Positions 13,503 to 24,804 of a DNA stretch of 33,382 bases are shown piece after piece. The DNA is from Planctomycetota bacterium (GTDB lineage Bacteria > Planctomycetota > Phycisphaerae > Phycisphaerales > SM1A02). The notes beneath the pieces are model-generated. The model had not been told where the DNA came from. It worked only from the letters and a program-made list of their open reading frames with translations, and made no database searches. The translations under genes were made by a program, and so were the position numbers. The DNA lies in contig JACNLO010000067.1 of NCBI GenBank assembly GCA_014381555.1, positions 1 to 33,382 on the forward strand. The letters are read 5' to 3'. Position 1 is the first letter of the stretch, and each line of letters starts with the position of its first letter.

Positions 13503-15614
13503 ATGGCGTTCATACCATCAACTAAAAAGAATCTAGGTCTGTTTGGCGTTTTCGCCCTTGCAACTGGGGCAACTTTAAGCAGTGGATTTTTCTTGTTGCC
13601 AAGTTTCGCAACCCAAATAGCAGGCCCAGCAGTGGTTCTTGCGTATTTGATTGCAGGGCTCTTGCTGATTCCTCCCATGCTGAGCAAAATCGAGTTAGGA
13701 ACTGCAATGCCAAGATCCGGTGGTGAATACTACTTCCTCGACAGAAGCCTAGGCCCTATGGTCGGGACGATTGGCGGTCTTGGAATTTGGTTAGCACTTC
13801 TCTTAAAGATCTCCTTCGCACTTGTAGGAATGAGTGCATACATCCAACTCTTTCTTCCAGATAGTACTAGCGATTCTGTGTATACCTTTATCGCGCTCGG
13901 ACTCGTGGTGTTCTTTGGTGGACTAAATCTCCTTGGAGCAAAAAAGACGACAACCTTTCAAATTATACTTGTCGCCTCTCTTCTCTCATTGCTAGGGTGG
14001 TTTCTTACGGCGGGAAGTTTAGAAATTAAACCGATAAATTTCTCGGGATTCTTCGATAGTGGGTCTCAAAATATCCTATCCGCAGCTGGTCTTGTTTTTA
14101 TTAGTTACATTGGTGTAACTAAAGTCATAAGCGTAGCTGGTGAGATAAAGGATCCAGAACGTAACTTGCCACTTGGGCTCTTTCTTGCAATAGGAACTGC
14201 TATTACTGTTTACATAGTTGGCTTGTTTATTATGGTGGGTGTTGTAGGAACAGACTCACTCTCCATTAAAAATGGCGAGATAAACCTCACTCCTGTTTCT
14301 ACCGTTGCAGCAGCAATTACTGGATCAAGGACGGGTGCATACATTATGGGGGTTGCAGCAATCATCGCATTTCTTTCTGTTGCGAATGCGGGGATTTTAA
14401 GTGCATCTCGATATCCGCTTGCCATGAGTAGGGACCATTTACTTCCTAAGACTCTGCGAAAAGTCGATGGCAACGGCACACCTGTCGTTGGAATTATTCT
14501 TTCTGCGTCGCTCATCATCGCCGTTATTTTATTTTTAGACCCTTTAAAGATAGCAAAACTCGCAAGTGCATTTCAACTACTCATATTTTCGATACTTTGC
14601 CTTTCTGTGATTGTGATGAGAGAAACAAAACTCAATTCGTATGACCCTGGCTTTAGAGCTCCCTTTTATCCTTGGCTACAGTTAGTCGGTGCTTCTGCAT
14701 GTATCACCTTTATCTTTATGATGGGTTGGCTCCCAGTCTTCTTTTCTTCTGGCATCGTTGTCGTTGGTACTGTTTGGTATTTTGCCTACGCACGTAAGCG
14801 AGTCGAGCGGTACGGTGCGATTTACCATATATTTGAACGCCTTGGAAGAAAAAGATTTGGTGCCCTTGACACCGAACTCCGAGAAATTTTAAAAGAAAAA
14901 GGGTTACGAGCACATGACCCATTTGATGAAATTGTTGCAAAAGCAACTGTTGTCGATGCGTCCCATGGAAACACGTTTGAAGATATTGTTCTCAAAGCAT
15001 CTGCAGAATTAGCTTCTTTGTTACCAACTACAGCAGAAGCGCTATCGCAGGGCTTCCTACATGGAACGCGCGTTGGTGCAACGCCTGTCACTGGCGGCGT
15101 TGCTCTTCCTCACTTGCGGCTTCCAAATCTTGAACAATCCATGATGGTCATCGCCCGAAGTAAGGATGGCGTCACGATTGACGTGGGCGACGCGTTTGGC
15201 GGGCACCATGAAGAACAATCCATCCATGCCATTTTCTTTTTAGTGAGTCCAGAAGATGATCCCTCACGACATTTACGATTACTTGCACAACTTGCTGGAC
15301 ATGTCGACAAGGAAGGGTTTATGGAACTCTGGCTAAAATCTAAAACCAACCAGGATATGAAGGAAATTCTCCTTCGAGAGAATCGGTTTATGTCATTGCA
15401 TCTCGACATTGGCACAGTAGCGGAGTCGATTATAGATTTGCAACTCAGCCAATTGAATATTCCTGATAATTGTCTCGTTGCTCTTATCCATCGAAGAGGA
15501 TACATGGTTGTCCCAAGGGGAAGTACGGTTCTTGAAAAAGGCGACAAACTAACAATTATTGGGGAAGAACAGGGTATTCAAGAACTCAAAAGCCAATACT
15601 ACAATTCCAAATAG
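13503..15614 (+). CDS. APC-family permease fused to PTS EIIA-type and RCK_C domains
   Basis: 703-residue three-part protein. Residues 10-430 form an APC-superfamily amino-acid permease with about 12 membrane segments, including SSGFFLLP at 26-33 and the PRSGGEYYF motif at 70-78. Residues 480-625 resemble a PTS fructose/nitrogen EIIA domain: FLHGTRVGATPVTGGVALPH carries the candidate phospho-accepting His537. Residues 640-700 are an RCK_C (TrkA-C) ligand-binding domain with GYMVVPRGSTVLEKGDKLTIIG. The C-terminal part likely gates transport in response to phosphorylation state and a small ligand. Substrate unknown. No other PTS gene is in the window, so the phosphoryl donor, if any, is elsewhere. 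A strong hairpin follows the stop. Confidence 0.85.
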   Translation: MAFIPSTKKNLGLFGVFALATGATLSSGFFLLPSFATQIAGPAVVLAYLIAGLLLIPPMLSKIELGTAMPRSGGEYYFLDRSLGPMVGTIGGLGIWLALLLKISFALVGMSAYIQLFLPDSTSDSVYTFIALGLVVFFGGLNLLGAKKTTTFQIILVASLLSLLGWFLTAGSLEIKPINFSGFFDSGSQNILSAAGLVFISYIGVTKVISVAGEIKDPERNLPLGLFLAIGTAITVYIVGLFIMVGVVGTDSLSIKNGEINLTPVSTVAAAITGSRTGAYIMGVAAIIAFLSVANAGILSASRYPLAMSRDHLLPKTLRKVDGNGTPVVGIILSASLIIAVILFLDPLKIAKLASAFQLLIFSILCLSVIVMRETKLNSYDPGFRAPFYPWLQLVGASACITFIFMMGWLPVFFSSGIVVVGTVWYFAYARKRVERYGAIYHIFERLGRKRFGALDTELREILKEKGLRAHDPFDEIVAKATVVDASHGNTFEDIVLKASAELASLLPTTAEALSQGFLHGTRVGATPVTGGVALPHLRLPNLEQSMMVIARSKDGVTIDVGDAFGGHHEEQSIHAIFFLVSPEDDPSRHLRLLAQLAGHVDKEGFMELWLKSKTNQDMKEILLRENRFMSLHLDIGTVAESIIDLQLSQLNIPDNCLVALIHRRGYMVVPRGSTVLEKGDKLTIIGEEQGIQELKSQYYNSK

Positions 15615-15882: not shown

Positions 15883-18135
15883 TTATTCGGCTGTAGCTAC
15901 TTGACCCATATCTTCGTGAATTACCTTCACTTTGTCATAGATTTCTGAAAGTGCATAGTTTTCAGGGTTATCTTCTACAACTGGCTGGAGTGCTAGTAGA
16001 ACACCATAGCAACTCTCTTTAGCGCGTTCGCGTTGTTTGAGTGCTTCACATTTGTCAGCGTAACTTCCTAGATACAGCGTGACATCATTTCGAGCTCTCG
16101 CGTTTGTTGGGTCTCCAACGCATCGATTCTGAACGATCCTAAGACCTTCTTCTAAGTAATCAAGACCAACATTTATCTGTGAATCCACAAGATACGCTTC
16201 TCCCAAAAAGTAATTTCCCCAAGCAACATCGCGAAGTAACCACGAATTTTCTGGGTGCTTCTCCACTAACGAATTTCTAATGTCAAGAGCGGCCTGGTAT
16301 TGAAGAATCGAATCCTTGTATTCCTCATCTTTAAGATGCATTGAAGCAACTCTAAGCAATATATTTGCATAGTCCCGCTGTAACTCAAACTGATTTGGAG
16401 ATTCCGAGGATATTTTTTTCCTGTACTCAACAAGGTCTGCTAGTTTCTCTCGCACTTCGTCGATGCGCTCAAGTTTAACGAGTACATCAATATTTGTTAA
16501 TCTGATTCTACTATCAAAGCGTAAAGCGTTCACATCGTCAGGAAAATCCTTAATCAATAAAGCAATTGTATCCTTTGCATTCTTGATGTGTATCAAACTT
16601 TGGGCATACTCCTCTTCCATTCGATTGAGATGCGCCAAATTCCCATACCCCAACGCTACATTAAAGTTATATCTTTTAAACCCATCGTCAACGAGTTTTT
16701 TATACATTTCCACAGATTTAAGATTGTGTTCTTTAGATTTTGCAATGTCCCCAAGATTTGCACTAGTTAGCCCACTGTAATATGCACCGTAAAGCCCATG
16801 AGTTTTAGCTTTTGCGGCGCGAATTTTTTCAGTTGATCCAGCAGTTTTTTCTAAATCATTGAGATGCCCCATTGAAGAATCTAGAACCAACTTTCGTACT
16901 TCCATCGCTGCATTAAGTCGTTCAATCCCCTCATAAAAGTCACCAATAACCTCTCGGGAGATATCCATAATGGCTTCATACCTCTCTTGGGCAATATCAC
17001 GTTGTTCCATAGCAATCGCTTCTTGGCGATTCGCTTCAACCATTCCCCACGTAGTTCCTAGCAAACCCAATACAACAGAAATTACAAGTAATATTACAGC
17101 AGCACACGTTCGTTTATATTTCTTCGTGAAGAGTCGAACTTGGTAACCGATGCTTAAAGGACGCGCAATGATTGGTTCGTTGTTTAAGAAGTGATTTATA
17201 TCATTAGCAAGTTCAGCAGCTGATTGATATCTTCGGTCGCAATCTTTCTCCATCGCCTTCAATGCTATTGTGTCAATATCCCCCCGCAAAATCGTGCTTA
17301 CTGTTGACATTGAAATTGGACGTTGCTCTTTAATAATGCGAACAGCTTCGTGAATTGCTTGACGGCGTAAATCGTAAGGAAGTTTCCCAGATAATAATTG
17401 GAATAAAATAACCCCAAGAGCATAAACATCACTTCTTGTGTCAATACGATCTGGATCTGCGTCGCATTGCTCTGGACTCATGTATTGCAACGTACCGATA
17501 AGTTGCCCCATAGTTGTTTGCATTGTTGTGACAGCTAGGTCAGCATCAGTTGCACGAGCAACACCAAAGTCAATAATTTTTGGATCGCCATTTGCATCTA
17601 TCAATATATTGTCTGGCTTCAAGTCACGGTGAATAATTCCTTTTTGGTGGGCGTGATGTACAGCATCGCACACTTTAGAGAAAAGTTCTAAGCGGTCCCT
17701 AATGGGAAGGTTTTTCTTTTCTGCATAAGAAACAATTCCACGCGCTCCGGGAATATATTCCATAGCGAAAAATGGGACTTCACCATTTTCGCTTTCCCAA
17801 GTTCCAGCTTCGTAAACCTGTGCAATATTAGGGTGGCTCAATTTAGCAAGCGTTTGTGATTCAAAATGAAAACGATGCAACGCCATTTCACTCGCTGCAC
17901 CAGCTTTGATGACTTTCAACCCAACACGCCTGCGAGGAGCTTCTTGCATCGCTTCGTATACGACACCCATGCCACCACTTGCGATAATCCCAAGAATTTT
18001 ATACCGCCCTATTTCTGAAGGCATCCCAGAAGTTACAAACTTGCCCGGCTCGGGAACACTTCCCTTTCCGGAATCATCACTTGGTAAACCGACAGTTTCG
18101 GCGTTTGGATCTGTTGGATAATCGTTAGTAGTCAT
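15883..18135 (-). CDS. transmembrane Ser/Thr protein kinase with TPR-rich C-terminus
   Basis: PknB-type (Hanks) kinase, 750 residues. Kinase domain at about 44-320: glycine loop ASGGMGVVY (52-60), catalytic Lys74 in VGLKVIK, HRDLKPDN (H169-N176), DFG (189-191), and SPEQ in place of APE at 220-223. All catalytic residues are present, so it should be active. One membrane helix at about 344-364 (VILLVISVVLGLLGTTWGM) puts the kinase in the cytoplasm. The C-terminal 380 residues (TPR-like helices with coiled-coil character, such as GNLAHLNRMEEEYAQSL) lie outside, as a possible sensor. It is divergent from an FHA-sigma factor gene 144 bp away, the probable phospho-target partner. Confidence 0.92.
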   Translation of the reverse strand: MTTNDYPTDPNAETVGLPSDDSGKGSVPEPGKFVTSGMPSEIGRYKILGIIASGGMGVVYEAMQEAPRRRVGLKVIKAGAASEMALHRFHFESQTLAKLSHPNIAQVYEAGTWESENGEVPFFAMEYIPGARGIVSYAEKKNLPIRDRLELFSKVCDAVHHAHQKGIIHRDLKPDNILIDANGDPKIIDFGVARATDADLAVTTMQTTMGQLIGTLQYMSPEQCDADPDRIDTRSDVYALGVILFQLLSGKLPYDLRRQAIHEAVRIIKEQRPISMSTVSTILRGDIDTIALKAMEKDCDRRYQSAAELANDINHFLNNEPIIARPLSIGYQVRLFTKKYKRTCAAVILLVISVVLGLLGTTWGMVEANRQEAIAMEQRDIAQERYEAIMDISREVIGDFYEGIERLNAAMEVRKLVLDSSMGHLNDLEKTAGSTEKIRAAKAKTHGLYGAYYSGLTSANLGDIAKSKEHNLKSVEMYKKLVDDGFKRYNFNVALGYGNLAHLNRMEEEYAQSLIHIKNAKDTIALLIKDFPDDVNALRFDSRIRLTNIDVLVKLERIDEVREKLADLVEYRKKISSESPNQFELQRDYANILLRVASMHLKDEEYKDSILQYQAALDIRNSLVEKHPENSWLLRDVAWGNYFLGEAYLVDSQINVGLDYLEEGLRIVQNRCVGDPTNARARNDVTLYLGSYADKCEALKQRERAKESCYGVLLALQPVVEDNPENYALSEIYDKVKVIHEDMGQVATAE

Positions 18136-18279: not shown

Positions 18280-19290
18280 GTGACAGATTCAAACAAACAA
18301 CAAAATCTACTTGTATTAAATCAAATACATGGCAAGGAACTCCCTTTAATAAGCGGCCAGCCAAATGATGAGATTATTTTAGGGCGAAGTCCAGAGTGCT
18401 CATTTCAACTCACAAATCGATATATTTCGCGAAAACACGCACAACTAACATTCAAAAAAAATCGATGGATCTTGAAAGATTTGGAAAGCAGAAGTGGAAC
18501 CTATCTCAATACGATTCGGATGGAATCTGGAGAAGAAGTGCAACTCCAAAGAGATGACTTGATTCAAGTTGGACCTTGGAAGTTTTTAGTTCGAATCGGA
18601 ATCGAATCAGAAAATCTAGATGAAGCAATGGTGAAGGAACTTGATCAGGCTCCGATGCAGGATTCAGGTGACGAGGTTCCAACACTTGTCCGAACAGTTA
18701 ATGGTCGTTACGAAACAAACATGGATTTGCTTCTTCAATTGAAATCTGATGAAACAGTCAACCGAGAAATGGGCTGGGGAATTTTCGTAGATCGCTATGG
18801 ACCAATCATTTGTGGGTTTGCAAGAAATGCAGGTCTACCAAGTAGTGAGGCTGACGACATTATGCAAACAGTCTTATTCAACTTTTTCAAAGTTGCTGAT
18901 CGCTTTGAATATGACCCAAGCAAGGGACGATTTCGAGGGTATCTCAAACGAATAACTCTTAACGCAATTCGTCAGCGCTATCGAAAAAAACGCGAAGGCA
19001 ATCTTGACACCCACGGAATGAATGTTGCAGAGGATCCGCGCGATGATCTTGAAGCGGTATTTGATCGCGAATGGGCAGAACATTTACTCTCTGAAGCTAT
19101 GACAGAAGCTCGACCAAAGTTTGAGCCAAAGACATGGGAAGCGTTTGAACTTTACGGTCGACGAGGTATGAGTGCTGCAAGAGCTGCTGAGAGATTAGGG
19201 ATGACCCCAGAGTCCGTTCGCCATGCTAAAAGTCGAGTAATGCGTAGTGTTCGTGAAATCGTCATTCGATTACGTGAAGAAGAACTTTAG
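18280..19290 (+). CDS. FHA-domain sigma-70 (ECF-like) RNA polymerase sigma factor
   Basis: 336-residue fusion, GTG start. Residues 16-108 form an FHA phosphothreonine-binding domain: LGRSPEC (GR at 35-36), ISRKH (49-53), SGTYLN (72-77). After an acidic linker containing several Thr residues (about 110-155), residues 165-240 match sigma region 2 (DDIMQTVLFNFFKVADRF, then KGRFRGYLKRITLNAIRQRYRKK). Residues 285-335 match the region-4 helix-turn-helix (FELYGRRGMSAARAAERLGM, then SVRHAKSRVMRSVREI). It probably binds a phosphorylated kinase or protein through FHA and then recruits RNA polymerase to target promoters. The divergent Ser/Thr kinase is the obvious upstream partner. No anti-sigma gene is present. 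Confidence 0.92.
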   Translation: MTDSNKQQNLLVLNQIHGKELPLISGQPNDEIILGRSPECSFQLTNRYISRKHAQLTFKKNRWILKDLESRSGTYLNTIRMESGEEVQLQRDDLIQVGPWKFLVRIGIESENLDEAMVKELDQAPMQDSGDEVPTLVRTVNGRYETNMDLLLQLKSDETVNREMGWGIFVDRYGPIICGFARNAGLPSSEADDIMQTVLFNFFKVADRFEYDPSKGRFRGYLKRITLNAIRQRYRKKREGNLDTHGMNVAEDPRDDLEAVFDREWAEHLLSEAMTEARPKFEPKTWEAFELYGRRGMSAARAAERLGMTPESVRHAKSRVMRSVREIVIRLREEEL

Positions 19291-19387: not shown

Positions 19388-19448
19388 ATCTTTTTGGTTT
19401 AGGAACTGAGAACCCAAATCTTATCTATGTGTCTTGTATGTTCCACGT

Positions 19449-19454
19449 TACAAT
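19449..19454 (+). promoter_or_regulatory. candidate -10 box for tRNA-Arg/crcB transcript
   Basis: TACAAT ends 10 bp before the first tRNA base, the expected spacing. No good -35 is seen 16-18 bp upstream. Confidence 0.3.
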
Positions 19455-19464
19455 CCACCACTGT

Positions 19465-19538
<74 letters not shown>

Positions 19539-19541
19539 TTT

Positions 19542-19943
19542 ATGGAATTCTCAACTTTTTTTGCTGTTGCTGTTGGTGGTGGGCTCGGTGCAGTTTCAAG
19601 ATACTTGGTTGCGAACCTTGGCCAATCTTGGACAACGGCTGATTTTCCTCTTGGCACTTTAGTTGTAAACATAATAGGATGTGCTTTGATAGGTCTAGTT
19701 ACCGCTTTGTTAATAGGACCACTCTCACAACATCGAGAATTTTTACGACTTCTGCTAATCGTAGGAGTCTTAGGTGGGTTCACAACTTTTTCCACATTTG
19801 CGCTAGATTCAATTGAACTGTTTGAAGACGGGAGGATTCGACAAGCAGTTATATACATATTGATTAGCAATGTTGTGGGTATTTTGGCAGCATGTATTAG
19901 TTACAAAATTGGAACAACTTTTTTAATTTCAACTCAAACATAA
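19542..19943 (+). CDS. crcB: fluoride channel/exporter CrcB (Fluc)
   Basis: 133-residue membrane protein with four hydrophobic segments; forms dual-topology dimers that export fluoride. Fluc motifs: GGGLGAVSRY (12-21), GTLVVNIIGC (38-47, with conserved N43) and GGFTTFSTFALD (78-89), the phenylalanine-box and sodium-site region. ATG at 19542 is the only start that keeps the first membrane segment, yet it lies 3 nt after the tRNA-Arg 3' end, so no ribosome-binding site can exist outside the tRNA. No fluoride riboswitch is visible. It is 18 bp upstream of the M14 pair. Confidence 0.93.
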   Translation: MEFSTFFAVAVGGGLGAVSRYLVANLGQSWTTADFPLGTLVVNIIGCALIGLVTALLIGPLSQHREFLRLLLIVGVLGGFTTFSTFALDSIELFEDGRIRQAVIYILISNVVGILAACISYKIGTTFLISTQT

Positions 19944-19961: not shown

Positions 19962-21842
19962 ATGTTAACTATTTGTTTGACAACAACACTATTCTATTTA
20001 CAGGAACCAGAACCTCTTCCTGACCGTAACTGGCGCACACCTACAGAAATATCCGAACAAGTTTCTGCATTAGACAACAATTATGAATCGGTTACTAGTT
20101 CAATCATAGGGTACTCTGGCTCGGGTTTGCCGATTCATTGTTTAGAAATTGCAAGAGAAGGCAGTGTACCAATCAAAGATAGGACTGCTATTCTTGTTGT
20201 AGCAGGAATTGATGGCGATCATTTACTAGGCACCGAGGTTGCTGTTGACCTTGTAAGTAAAGTTCTTACACAAGAACCAGAAAAGTCAGAAGCCCTTCTA
20301 ACTTCAAACAAATTGTACGTAATCCCTCAGGTAAACCCAGACAGCGCGAAGTTTTATTTTAATGAAGTGAAACATCAACAGCAAAGAACTCCTACCCCAT
20401 TTGACAATGATCACGACGGGGTAAAAGACGAGGATGGGTTCGAAGATCTAAATGGTGATGGATTCATCACAATGATGAGAGTCCCTGATTTAGAAAAAGC
20501 AAACCTCCTTGCTGATGTCGATAATCCTAGATTAGAAATTAAACCAAATCCCCTAGATGGAAACGTCGCTTCTTTTATTGTTTACACTGAAGGAATCGAT
20601 AACGATGGAGATGGCAAATACAACGAAGATGGCGTTGGTGGTGTCGATTTAAATAAGAATTTCATGCATGGCTACGAATACCACGGAGATGGCGCAGGGC
20701 ACTGGCAACTTTGTGAAAGTGAATCTAGGGCGCTTGCTGATTTTGTTTTGAATCACCAAGAAATAGCATCCATCATTGTCTATGGGCATCACGACACACT
20801 CTCAAAACCATTTACTGAAAGCGGGAAGGACGAAGCGGGAGCACCAAAAAAACTCGCAGAAGAAGATGTTGAACTCTATAAACATATAAGCAAGAGATTT
20901 GTTGAATTAACAGAACTTAAAGATGTCAATCAACCAAACTGGGACGGTAGTTTTGTGGCTTGGGCGTATGCTCAATATGGAGTTCCTTCGTTCTCTACTT
21001 CACTCTGGACTAGGCCAGAGTTGAATAAAGAGGGAAACAAGGAGCAAAAAACTGAAGATAAATCAGATGCTAATACCGAAAATAATGAGTTAACAACCTC
21101 TTCTGTTGGGGATATTTCTCAAGAAACACTCGATGAACTTCTGCAAGCCGCAGAGGCAGCTGGTTTTCCCGTTACCGAAGAAATGATGGAAGGAATTACT
21201 CCAGAGGATATTGAAATGTATGCAAAAATGTCTGGTGTGCAAATTAAAAGAGTAAAGGAAAAAGACGCTGGTAATAAATCCAATTCGGAAGATGTTGCAT
21301 GGTTAGTTTACAGTGATGAACAACGAGATAGAAACGGCTTTATTGAGTGGAGTACATTCGATCATCCTCAACTTGGCACAGTAGAAATCGGCGGATGGGT
21401 CCCATACTTTAAAACACTTCCCCCGACAGATGAAATCGATTCCATAACAGAAAAACAAGTGGGCTTCATTAATGATATTGCTAACCGACTACCAAAAATC
21501 CAACTTTCAACCCCAACGGTAACAAAACTTGGAAACAACATTTGGGAGATAAAAGTTGCAGTAGTCAATAATGGCTGGTTCCCAACTGGAACTGCTATGG
21601 CTAAGAAGAACAAACGCGCTCGCCCGTTAGTCGTTCGTCTTGATGTTCCAAATGACACCATCGTATCTGGGCAGAAAGTAAACCGGATATGGTCTCTTCA
21701 GGGAAGCGGAACAAGACAGTGGTATAAGTGGATTCTGAAAGGTAAGCCAGAAAAAAAAGTAACTATTACACTCTTTAGTGAAAAATTTGGCAGTAAAACT
21801 ATTTCTGTCTCTCTAAAAAATACTGATGGAGGTGACGCATGA
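19962..21842 (+). CDS. M14 carboxypeptidase-like protein, probable pseudoenzyme with Ca-type loops
   Basis: 626-residue paralogue of the next gene, with the M14 zinc-carboxypeptidase fold but altered active site. The HxxE zinc motif is replaced by DGDH (D84, H87). Substrate-binding NRN is NKN (K232). The third zinc His is kept (H276 in YGHHDT). The catalytic Glu of FTNELW is Ser347 in FSTSLW. Inserted calcium-type loops: DNDHDGVKDEDG (148-159), DLNGDGFITM (162-171), DNDGDGKYNEDG (213-224). Residues 355-445 are an acidic, low-complexity and helical insert absent from the partner. A C-terminal beta-rich domain (about 520-620) is shared. A weak signal sequence (MLTICLTTTLFYLQ) suggests export. 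AGAGGA before the ATG supports this start. The stop overlaps the next gene by ATGA. Confidence 0.85.
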   Translation: MLTICLTTTLFYLQEPEPLPDRNWRTPTEISEQVSALDNNYESVTSSIIGYSGSGLPIHCLEIAREGSVPIKDRTAILVVAGIDGDHLLGTEVAVDLVSKVLTQEPEKSEALLTSNKLYVIPQVNPDSAKFYFNEVKHQQQRTPTPFDNDHDGVKDEDGFEDLNGDGFITMMRVPDLEKANLLADVDNPRLEIKPNPLDGNVASFIVYTEGIDNDGDGKYNEDGVGGVDLNKNFMHGYEYHGDGAGHWQLCESESRALADFVLNHQEIASIIVYGHHDTLSKPFTESGKDEAGAPKKLAEEDVELYKHISKRFVELTELKDVNQPNWDGSFVAWAYAQYGVPSFSTSLWTRPELNKEGNKEQKTEDKSDANTENNELTTSSVGDISQETLDELLQAAEAAGFPVTEEMMEGITPEDIEMYAKMSGVQIKRVKEKDAGNKSNSEDVAWLVYSDEQRDRNGFIEWSTFDHPQLGTVEIGGWVPYFKTLPPTDEIDSITEKQVGFINDIANRLPKIQLSTPTVTKLGNNIWEIKVAVVNNGWFPTGTAMAKKNKRARPLVVRLDVPNDTIVSGQKVNRIWSLQGSGTRQWYKWILKGKPEKKVTITLFSEKFGSKTISVSLKNTDGGDA

Positions 21843-23599
21843 TTCGCATACTTCTACTTCTTCTTTTTACAGCAGCATTGTCACACGCACAAGCACCCTA
21901 TCCTTCTAAAGTGGACTTGCGATTTGACCATTGGTATGACTACGCAGAATTGACAGAGGCGCTTCACGATTTAGTTGAGGCGTATCCAGAATTACTTTCA
22001 ATCGATTCAATTGGAAAAAGTGTTGGTGATAGAGATATTTGGCTTGTCACCCTCAATAATCCTGCAACAGGAAGTGACCGTGAAAAGACCGCCATGTTTA
22101 TCGATGGGAATATTCATGGAAATGAAATTCAGGCAGCAGAAACCGTGCTGTATTCCATATGGTACTTATGTAAAAGTTATGGCGTGATAGACCGCATCAC
22201 TGAACTCGTTGATGAACGCTCGTTTTATTTTGTTCCAATGGAAAACCCAGACGGTAGAGAAGTTTGGTTCCATCAACCAGCAACACCACACTTTTTGCGC
22301 GGTGGCATTCGCCCAGTCGATAATGACCACGATGGGCTGCTTGACGAAGATGGACCAGATGATCTTGATGGAGATGGACACATAACTTCAATGTGGATTA
22401 AAGACGAACTTGGGCGGTACGAAATTGACGAAGACGACCCAAGATTTTTTACACGAGTTGATTCAGACGATCCACCAGGTGGATGGTCTCGTCTTGGCCA
22501 AGAAGGCATCGATAACGATGATGATGGACGAATCAACGAAGATGGAATCGGCGGATACGACCCAAATCGAAATTGGCCCGCTGACTGGCAACCTGAGTGG
22601 ATTCAATATGGAGCAACTGATTATCCATTTAGTTTGCCAGAGACAAGAGCGGTTGGAGAGTTTTTACTTGACCATCCAAACGTTGCTGCTTGTCAAAGTT
22701 ATCACAACGCTGGAGGCATGATTCTTCAGGGACCAAGTGCTTCTTATATTAAATATCCTCGCTCTGATGAACGAGTACACACTGCAATTGCAAACAAGGG
22801 TGCAGAAATGCTTCCATTCTATGAACCAATGATTGCATACAAAGATTTGTATACCGTGCATGGTGGAGAAGACGGGTTTACTTATGAAACACTTGGCATA
22901 GTCAGTTTCACTAATGAACTTTGGACCGACAAGCGCATGTACGCAAAAGATGAAAATCCATCTAGAGAAGAACGGACGCAATTCCGTGACTTGTTGCAAT
23001 TTGAAGACGTGTTTGTGCCATTTCATGAAGTTGATCATCCGACTTACGGAAAGGTGATGGTTGGTGGTACTACTAAATACTCTAGTCGTGTTACTCCACC
23101 TTGGATGCTTCAAGAGGGTTGTCACAGAAATTTCGCTTTCACTATGTACCATGCAGATGAGATGCCGCTTCTTCAGTGGGGGGCGATTGATGTAAAAAAA
23201 ATTGGCGATCAACTTTGGAAAGTAACTGCAGAAGTCGCAAACGATAAAATCATCCCTTCTCGTACTGCAATGGCAGCGAAACATCACATTGGTTCGCCTG
23301 ATGTGTTCACTTGCAAAACAAGTGGCACCAACAAAGTTAGTGCCTCAGGAACAGTACGTTCGTTACAAAAAACAGCCAAACTCGATGAGATTGAGTCCGA
23401 ACACCCACAAAAAATTCTTGTAAACAATGGAATCTCTGGAAAAGACAGTACACTCTTCCAATTTATTATCAGTGGTTTTGGAGATGTTAACGTTACATAT
23501 AAAGCGGAAAAAGGTGGAATATTACACCGTAAAGTGCAACTAAAAGAGCAGTTTGTTACTAAAGAGATTGAACACAAGCGAGCAATTCCAGTCGATTAG
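21839..23599 (+). CDS. secreted M14-family zinc carboxypeptidase with Ca-type loops
   Basis: 586 residues with a clear signal peptide (MIRILLLLLFTAALSHAQA, cleavage near 19). The M14 active site is complete: HGNE (H93, E96), NRN (N243, R244), H289 in SYHNAGG, catalytic E360 in FTNELW. Inserts carry calcium-type loops DNDHDGLLDEDG (161-172), DLDGDGHITSM (175-185) and DNDDDGRINEDG (225-236), similar to thrombospondin type 3 or EF-hand loops. The C-terminal region from about 455 is a beta-rich domain homologous to that of the upstream gene. It probably trims peptides or peptidoglycan stems outside the cytoplasm. It overlaps the pseudoenzyme gene by ATGA, and an MFS transporter follows after 2 bp. 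Confidence 0.92.
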   Translation: MIRILLLLLFTAALSHAQAPYPSKVDLRFDHWYDYAELTEALHDLVEAYPELLSIDSIGKSVGDRDIWLVTLNNPATGSDREKTAMFIDGNIHGNEIQAAETVLYSIWYLCKSYGVIDRITELVDERSFYFVPMENPDGREVWFHQPATPHFLRGGIRPVDNDHDGLLDEDGPDDLDGDGHITSMWIKDELGRYEIDEDDPRFFTRVDSDDPPGGWSRLGQEGIDNDDDGRINEDGIGGYDPNRNWPADWQPEWIQYGATDYPFSLPETRAVGEFLLDHPNVAACQSYHNAGGMILQGPSASYIKYPRSDERVHTAIANKGAEMLPFYEPMIAYKDLYTVHGGEDGFTYETLGIVSFTNELWTDKRMYAKDENPSREERTQFRDLLQFEDVFVPFHEVDHPTYGKVMVGGTTKYSSRVTPPWMLQEGCHRNFAFTMYHADEMPLLQWGAIDVKKIGDQLWKVTAEVANDKIIPSRTAMAAKHHIGSPDVFTCKTSGTNKVSASGTVRSLQKTAKLDEIESEHPQKILVNNGISGKDSTLFQFIISGFGDVNVTYKAEKGGILHRKVQLKEQFVTKEIEHKRAIPVD

Positions 23600-23601
23600 A
23601 C

Positions 23602-24804
23602 ATGACCGAAAAACTACATAAGAATTTACGCCTTTATCCTTGGTACGTTGGATTATTCCATGCTTACTTTTGGTTGCCTGTGTACTTTTTATTTTTTAAT
23701 AGCAAATTAGATTTGTCAGATGTTCTGTATCTTGCTTCTATTTACTTTGCGAGCGTTGTGGTTGTTGAAGTTCCGTCGGGTTGGTTTAGCGATACATTTG
23801 GAAGAAAGAAAACATTAGTAACTGCCAGCATTTTTCTTTGCATCGCTTACGCCATCTTTATTTTCGCAAATTCATTTGAACAATTTGTAGTTGCCCAAGT
23901 GTTTTTAGCCGCAGGTATTGCCTTCAATAGCGGCAGTGACACAAGTTTGCTCCTAGAAACAACTCAAGCATTAGATAACGAGGAAGCATACGGTCCTTGT
24001 GAAGCAAAGGCGATGAAATTTAACTTTCTTGGCACTGCCTCTGCTGCGGTACTTGGTGGGCTTGCTGCAATTCCCGACTATCGAGGTGCGTACATTCTCT
24101 CGCTTGTAGGAGGAATTGGACTGCTTATCATCACGTTAAATTTCAAAGAACCGCTTCAAAATAAAACGGAAGACCGAGACAATTTTGTAAAGCAGATTTT
24201 TTCTTGTTTCGGATTGTTGCGTAATGTCCGTTTGCTTTGGCTTTCAGTGTTTGCTGTATTTATGATTGTGATTAATCATATTCCTTATGAGTTCTATCAG
24301 CCATATATAGAAGTACTTGCAAAGGAATACAACGCAATCAAACTTACCCCATTTCTATCAAGTTTACATTTAACTCTAACTATGCTTGTAGCATCTTGGA
24401 TAGCGGCACACTCGATTCGCATAAAAAACAAAATCGGCACTGGAGCAACTTTGCTATCTGCAACAGGTTTACAAATTGCAATGATGGCGATTATGCACTT
24501 CTTTGTGAGCATCCCAGCAGCAATTGCAACATTACTTCGTAGTTGCCCCCGCGCACTCATGACAGCGCCATTAAATGTTGCCGTTGCTCCAAACGTTCCC
24601 GCTTCTAAACGGGCAACATTTCTTTCCCTTCAAAGTTTATTTGGTCGTTTGGGCTATTCAGCAACTCTTGCATTCTTTGCAACGAAGGCGGGAGGAACTG
24701 ATGAATGGCCGGCAATCGCAACAATGCTCGGCTGGGGTATGTGGTGCGGGCTCGCGGGCTTCGCCTTACTTCTAATATCAGTTCGTTGCCTAAGTAAACA
24801 ATAA
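23602..24804 (+). CDS. MFS transporter
   Basis: 400-residue major facilitator with about 12 membrane segments. Motif A between segments 2 and 3 is GWFSDTFGRKK (60-70) with D64 and R68. The substrate is not recognised. The start is 2 bp after the M14 peptidase stop, so it is probably co-translated. Import of peptidase products (amino acids or small peptides) is a reasonable guess but only inferred. The last codons (AAACAATAA) and stop lie inside the dispersed CCCGCGGGAT element, so the terminal residues of the protein come from the repeat. Confidence 0.88.
   Translation: MTEKLHKNLRLYPWYVGLFHAYFWLPVYFLFFNSKLDLSDVLYLASIYFASVVVVEVPSGWFSDTFGRKKTLVTASIFLCIAYAIFIFANSFEQFVVAQVFLAAGIAFNSGSDTSLLLETTQALDNEEAYGPCEAKAMKFNFLGTASAAVLGGLAAIPDYRGAYILSLVGGIGLLIITLNFKEPLQNKTEDRDNFVKQIFSCFGLLRNVRLLWLSVFAVFMIVINHIPYEFYQPYIEVLAKEYNAIKLTPFLSSLHLTLTMLVASWIAAHSIRIKNKIGTGATLLSATGLQIAMMAIMHFFVSIPAAIATLLRSCPRALMTAPLNVAVAPNVPASKRATFLSLQSLFGRLGYSATLAFFATKAGGTDEWPAIATMLGWGMWCGLAGFALLLISVRCLSKQ

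Follow-up and report, generated by a model that had tools for sequence, protein, structure and literature searches.

Dead and live partners among metallopeptidases

Pairs of homologous subunits, one catalytic and one dead, form the M16B metallopeptidases and the mitochondrial processing peptidase (alpha/beta), and across M16 the dead and live subunits come in bacteria from a two-gene operon and in M16A/M16C as one fused chain, according to the accessible part of PMC11266112. Here we describe a similar arrangement in another family, namely a tandem of two M14 carboxypeptidase homologues, genes A and B, on contig JACNLO010000067.1 of a Planctomycetota bacterium. The window, i.e. the whole stretch of DNA that was analysed, is 33,382 nucleotides long. 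The resemblance is one of arrangement only. The A-B pair is no M16B member, fold and family differ (M16 vs M14) and no shared ancestry is claimed; A and B match only M14 in profile and structure searches, without membership of the M16 fold/HxxEH group. The heterodimer has been solved for M16B, whereas we only infer it here.

In family M14, four pseudopeptidases are known from vertebrates and one has been characterised from yeast, as far as the accessible part of PMC11266112 goes. In its account AEBP1/ACLP, CPXM1, CPXM2 and yeast Ecm14 have, like A, substituted catalytic residues, and Ecm14 and CPXM1 retain all three zinc ligands. These proteins are encoded by single genes with an extracellular-matrix or unknown role, and that part of the source describes no obligate pair with an active paralogue. 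It also describes CPD-III, the inactive third M14 domain of carboxypeptidase D (CPD), which is covalently joined to active M14 domains and lacks most active-site residues, as A does. This domain aids the active ones, is needed for full function in Drosophila and may present substrate. CPD is a eukaryotic protein of a single chain that has transthyretin-like domains and is anchored in the membrane, whereas A and B are encoded by two genes in bacteria, contain acidic calcium-type loops and are fused in one genome read. Carboxypeptidase T and the pancreatic carboxypeptidases A/B share their fold with A (Z about 30), and both fold and catalytic residues with B, but they are single active enzymes without a dead homologous partner and without the C-terminal part. 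We found no account of a bacterial M14 active/inactive pair in the open-access literature searched.

The two genes of the window overlap by four bases:

19962..21842, forward strand: gene A, a predicted catalytically dead M14 carboxypeptidase homologue of 626 residues (open reading frame; Pfam PF00246, 4.4e-14)
21839..23599, forward strand: gene B, an M14 carboxypeptidase with a complete catalytic set, 586 residues (open reading frame; Pfam PF00246, 1.8e-43)
21839..21842, forward strand: ATGA, the start of B overlapping the stop of A (sequence)

We consider it likely that A and B make up a single functional unit. This would be a metallocarboxypeptidase heterodimer that binds calcium and is probably exported, with the sole working zinc site in B and with A as a non-catalytic subunit. 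B passes the M14 profile test, matching Pfam Peptidase_M14 with a score of 149.6 against a cut-off of 21.6 bits, and A passes the M14 fold test (PF00246; model Z 30.5 to 1zli). That the two coupled genes are paralogues, as a preliminary description of this DNA had claimed, was confirmed by BLASTP (26% identity, E 2e-22, near whole length) and by hhalign (probability 100 over 508 columns, the C-terminal part included). The source genome (2.0 Mb, 97.7% complete) has M14 matches in three genes only, i.e. A, B and one elsewhere. By every sequence test B is an M14 metallocarboxypeptidase, which predicts carboxypeptidase activity for it; A is, as judged from its sequence, an M14 homologue and not an M14 peptidase. 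An NCBIfam search of the window proteins gave nothing useful.

Active-site loss in A and retention in B

The residues at issue are located as follows:

20211..20222, forward strand: A Asp84-Gly-Asp-His87, in the position of the zinc motif HxxE (BLASTP and hhalign alignment to B)
20784..20786, forward strand: A Gly275, in the position of the third zinc ligand His196 (BLASTP, hhalign, joint MAFFT; model strand ends)
20790..20795, forward strand: A His277-Asp278, the second and third residues beyond the third-ligand position, frequent in A without being universal (H277 in 93 and D278 in 115 of 136 rows with a residue)
21000..21002, forward strand: A Ser347, at the place of the catalytic Glu270 (alignments)
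22115..22126, forward strand: B zinc motif His93-Gly-Asn-Glu96 (H in 181/181 and E in 181/181 distinct B)
22565..22570, forward strand: B Asn243-Arg244, substrate carboxylate binding (177/177 each)
22703..22705, forward strand: B third zinc ligand His289 (176/176)
22916..22918, forward strand: B catalytic Glu360 (173/173)

The set of B is complete, with the ligands His93, Glu96 and His289, the pair Asn243-Arg244 and Glu360, and so the downstream gene does keep HxxE (as HGNE), NRN, the third His and the Glu, as first described. The A residues aligned to this set are Asp84 (His69), His87 (Glu72), Gly275, Asn231-Lys232 and Ser347 (Glu270; Glu360 in B). The preliminary reading of DxxH, NKN and Ser in the upstream gene is therefore correct (DGDH vs HGNE, NKN vs NRN, Ser347 vs Glu360). 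It erred on the third ligand site, where it had left A a His. Gly275 occupies this position in the BLASTP, hhalign and joint MAFFT alignments alike, with His277 two residues on, and we reject a third-ligand His in A. The strand ends in the model of a natural A-B fusion (described below) agree: the strand before the third ligand spans 259-265 and is followed by Gly266 in the A half, and spans 909-915 and is followed by His916 in the B half. The strands preceding the first ligand and the catalytic residue are spaced alike in both halves.

This difference holds across genomes. We counted residues in 184 distinct A and 182 distinct B, duplicate genes being removed by identity over a 140-residue stretch; the fusion was left out of the pair and residue counts and is shown separately, and the A counts omit two intact upstream genes (L172_1_1902 and L238_1_1368), set apart beforehand. 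The six canonical residues are all present in 172/172 complete B, and Arg127 in 182/182 distinct B. The canonical set occurs in 0/163 A readable at all sites, and Glu270 is absent in 178/178 distinct A. It is the loss that is conserved in A and not, as had been proposed for checking, the letters DxxH/NKN/Ser, which drift. Position 69 is D in 98, E in 43 and H in 11 of 175 A; position 72 is H in 95, R in 33 and Q in 13 of 178; position 270 is P in 45, N in 23, R in 22, D in 20 and S in 16 of 178; and the third-ligand column has Gly in 134, Ser in 28 and His in 1 of 181. The column of the catalytic Glu is one of the more variable in A (86th percentile), and in divergent A families the whole zinc site becomes GARD, GRRP or similar. 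A rebuilt zinc site in A is unlikely, since the third-ligand position is Gly or Ser in 162/181 and no counted A has Glu at 270.

B has 47 invariant columns. In A, 18 of these are conserved at 95% or more (12 being loop acids) and 21 have been lost, and the seven for catalysis or substrate binding are all among the latter. As far as the sequences tell, A is constrained, though not at its former active site, because the B-invariant loop acids are kept and the catalytic columns are lost. The acidic calcium-type loops that the preliminary description had assigned to both proteins are indeed common to them, and they lie together with the two other distinctive parts of A at these positions:

20403..20459, forward strand: A first acidic calcium-type loop, Asp148-Asp166 (D148, D150, D152, E157, D158 and D162 in 97-100% of A, invariant in B)
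20589..20630, forward strand: A second acidic loop, Glu210-Asp223 (E210, D213, D215, D217, E222 and D223 in 99-100% of A)
22319..22363, forward strand: B first acidic loop, Asp161-Asp175 (column conservation)
22502..22543, forward strand: B second acidic loop, Glu222-Asp235 (column conservation)
21015..21281, forward strand: A acidic insert, residues ~352-440, a low-confidence stretch and then helices 387-424 (predicted model)
21324..21821, forward strand: A C-terminal beta-rich part, residues ~455-620 (model secondary structure; hhalign to B)

The extra segment of A noticed earlier is real, as 119 residues follow the catalytic strand in A (Trp349 to His468) vs 38 in B (Trp362 to His400). The length of the insert varies among A proteins, and the window protein has a confidently predicted helical stretch at ~387-424. 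The predicted structure of A (90 sequences) has a predicted local distance difference test score (pLDDT) of 91.6 and a predicted template modelling score (pTM) of 0.86, and consists of an M14 domain and the C-terminal beta-rich part; its VIA match to carboxypeptidase B 1zli has Z 30.5 and 2.6 Å over 270 residues. With a predicted M14 fold, substituted catalytic residues and a gene under constraint, A fits the M14 pseudopeptidase kind.

Pairing, selection and descent

Of the 101 relatives, 61 have a match to A, and it is these same genomes that carry B at E < 1e-100; a further 15 have only weak M14 matches to the B query, and both genes are absent from two genomes of the same genus (G007 and G010). 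We also scanned 392 genomes of the phylum, 99 of which match the B profile at 1e-60 and 82 at E <= 1e-160, all 82 with A. These two scans are the B-first counts, and many of the other loci were found via A, which favours pairs. A and B were read on one contig in 77 of the 82 genomes with a strong B; in the other five, for which A was taken from match tables, the genes are adjacent in G210 and G284 and on different contigs in G199, G223 and G326. The weaker B-profile matches are partly another, intact M14 type (HSSE...GWVPELW), without a dead neighbour in the stretch read (loci L226, L228, L229, L233, L252-L254 and L258).

The order of the genes is nearly fixed. An A-type gene lies upstream on the same strand for 174/176 distinct B, the remaining two being one B at a contig edge and one with A elsewhere in the genome. 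Glu is missing in 163/165 upstream partners readable at the catalytic position, a count that includes two intact genes from Aminicenantes. Seen from the other side, B is downstream of 180/186 A-type genes, and the six exceptions are five contig ends and L114, where A is alone at the locus and B is elsewhere in the same genome. The junction at the A stop is ATGA, GTGA or TTGA in 110/174 distinct pairs, TAATG-like in 15 and other in 49. A scan of named genomes gave 80 loci, nearly all with A and then B (the exceptions being L114 and contig ends), under titles naming Planctomycetota or Phycisphaer-, Aminicenantes, Bacteroidota, Rhodothermales, Calditrichota, KSB1 and Acidobacteriota. These titles are of metagenome-assembled genomes, with no cultured host among the loci. 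Flanking genes vary between the 34 loci viewed, and no conserved neighbours of the pair were found in them. On sequence grounds the pair is ancient and nearly inseparable. As an observation on the records themselves, L137 is titled Vicinamibacteraceae and its genome is placed in the window's own order; the title looks wrong.

A is under purifying selection. The ratios of nonsynonymous to synonymous substitution rates (dN/dS) for the five closest A pairs are 0.13, 0.08, 0.11, 0.20 and 0.18, and for the matching five B pairs 0.06, 0.05, 0.08, 0.12 and 0.13; they come from the best 40 of 64 A and the best 40 of 245 B comparisons, duplicates included, with some dS saturated. The preliminary description had named rarity of A and relaxed selection as what would speak against its reading, and A is neither rare (61/101 relatives, 82 phylum genomes) nor relaxed (dN/dS 0.08-0.20). 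Its proposal of a conserved enzyme/pseudoenzyme couple stands, given the co-occurrence, the fixed order, the purifying selection on A, the loss in A and the retention in B.

In a tree, 40 A and 38 B proteins are cleanly separated with support 0.97. A evolves faster than B, with mean tree distances of 2.72 vs 1.67, and the A and B distances correlate over 38 loci (r = 0.70, vs 0.235 for the best of 2000 shuffles). Such mirrored distances are expected of long co-inheritance and are not by themselves proof of contact. The intact Aminicenantes upstream genes of loci L172:1-3811 and L238:1-3195, the former complete and the latter cut at its start, are both neighbours of B-like genes and branch next to the A clade (support 0.96 for A alone and 0.866 for A plus both). 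Basal A proteins have a partial motif, HGDE in L230 and AGDE in L225, and the half-lost motifs HGDE, AGDE, RGDE and HGRE, without the catalytic Glu, are found in the A proteins of L230, L225 and L243-L247. We read the latter proteins as putative intermediate stages of inactivation, and the intact-intact Aminicenantes pairs may represent the state before it. Because the L172 and L238 upstream genes are intact and the basal A proteins have a partial motif, the sequences suggest that the tandem came first and the inactivation of A later.

A putative heterodimer and competing explanations

In one genome (G027, locus L053) A and B are fused into one open reading frame of 1235 residues with a linker and without the N-terminal hydrophobic segment of B. 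This is the only fusion among the loci read, A and B being separate genes in the window. We predicted its structure using alignment rows with 21 natural in-frame A-B stretches; the model has pLDDT 81.1 and pTM 0.80, with 125/1198 residues under pLDDT 50. It suggests a defined arrangement of A and B, because the pTM of 0.80 exceeds the ~0.5 that we would expect for two independently placed modules, the latter value being our own estimate. Peptide binding, inhibition, chaperoning and a heterodimer had all been offered as roles for the dead partner, and among these a physical heterodimer agrees best with the fusion model.

The sequence-based evidence for one functional unit is the pairing, the gene order, the active-site loss in A, the retention in B, the purifying selection on A and the one fusion. 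We propose that an ancient tandem duplication would have given A and B, and that A would have lost catalysis once the tandem existed. B would then carry the only working zinc site and do the cutting as a carboxypeptidase, and A, in contact with it, would be required for folding or holding B or for completing B and its substrate cleft. The dead A is probably a required partner of the live B. The unit would presumably bind calcium and is probably exported; both window proteins pass a crude test for a hydrophobic N-terminus.

Several observations weigh against a heterodimer with a dead A subunit. The pTM is indirect evidence, and it comes from one fusion model, built on 22 alignment rows, without a negative control or inter-module error values. 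Two genes of a common operon that form no complex could also be co-inherited and give mirrored trees. A working upstream partner exists, as the two Aminicenantes genes (L172 1-1902 and L238 1-1368) keep the catalytic residues. Two genes separate A and B in G023 (L051:3-2647), epimerase-like and phosphogluconate dehydrogenase-like by sequence reading, where the C-terminal part of A is visible and B is kept; A and B are unlinked in G462. Export is not established for all pairs, because only 89/167 A and 72/162 B pass the crude N-terminus test.

One alternative is that A binds B transiently, as a dedicated inhibitor, chaperone or prodomain-like partner for folding or for inactivity until export, and does not belong to the mature enzyme as a subunit. 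A precedes B and is translationally coupled to it in many pairs, as expected of a protein needed before B, and inactive regulatory partners of M14 enzymes are known in general terms from the accessible part of PMC11266112. We nevertheless regard this as rather unlikely, as A matches B in architecture over the full length, C-terminal part included, and the fusion suits a stable unit better. Separate jobs for the two proteins, e.g. peptide or cell-wall binding by A, with the genes kept together only for joint expression, would agree with the facts that operon partners often make no contact and that vertebrate M14 pseudopeptidases bind collagens and not enzymes (PMC11266112, accessible part). But the neighbours turn over while the pair stays, both genes persist where they are unlinked, and there are the fusion and its model, which together make this explanation quite improbable.

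It is also very unlikely that A is still an enzyme with changed chemistry, its new site consisting of the acid at the first ligand, the His at the second and the nearby His277-Asp278. Among 120 unique A, 109 have an acid at 84, 81 have His87, 77 have His277 and 48 have all three, and D278 is found in 115/136 rows. But the set is incomplete in most A, the third ligand is Gly or Ser in 162/181, the Glu position is variable, and divergent families such as those with GARD or GRRP change the whole site. A strictly conserved alternative catalytic set was accordingly rejected, acid84, His87 and His277 being complete in only 48/120. We see little chance for the related idea of a two-site machine with a swapped ligand set, in which A has exchanged HxxE for acid-xx-His and the shifted His-Asp and either catalyses another reaction or binds a metal or a peptide, which B would then process. 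Pseudogene decay or a sequencing artefact is scarcely credible as an account of A. Its faster evolution than that of B would fit decay, but the frames are open across the sampled genomes, dN/dS is well below 1, the loop residues are invariant and the fold is confidently predicted; pseudogene decay was rejected on dN/dS and the conserved loop residues.

If A is a required subunit, as we favour, the metallocarboxypeptidases would have evolved their own alpha/beta design, and many database entries naming A a zinc carboxypeptidase would mislead. The pair is a clean system for the evolution of an enzyme into a partner, as the intact-intact tandem and both partly (HGDE, AGDE) and fully degraded A survive, and the natural fusion is a ready construct.

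In the window, a gene for an MFS transporter (23602-24804) starts 3 bases after B. It also follows B in some loci of the same genus, and at other loci a flavoprotein-like or other gene comes after B, some overlapping it. Upstream of the pair lies a tRNA-Arg (CCT) gene at 19464-19539, and the minus-strand open reading frame overlying it (19448-19870) is probably spurious. Positions 18280-19290 encode an FHA domain and sigma-70 region 2 within one protein, and nearby on the opposite strand lies the gene for a Ser/Thr protein kinase with a TPR match (15883-18135); the former protein is perhaps a kinase-controlled sigma factor. Positions 13503-15614 encode an amino acid permease fused to PTS EIIA-2 and TrkA_C domains.

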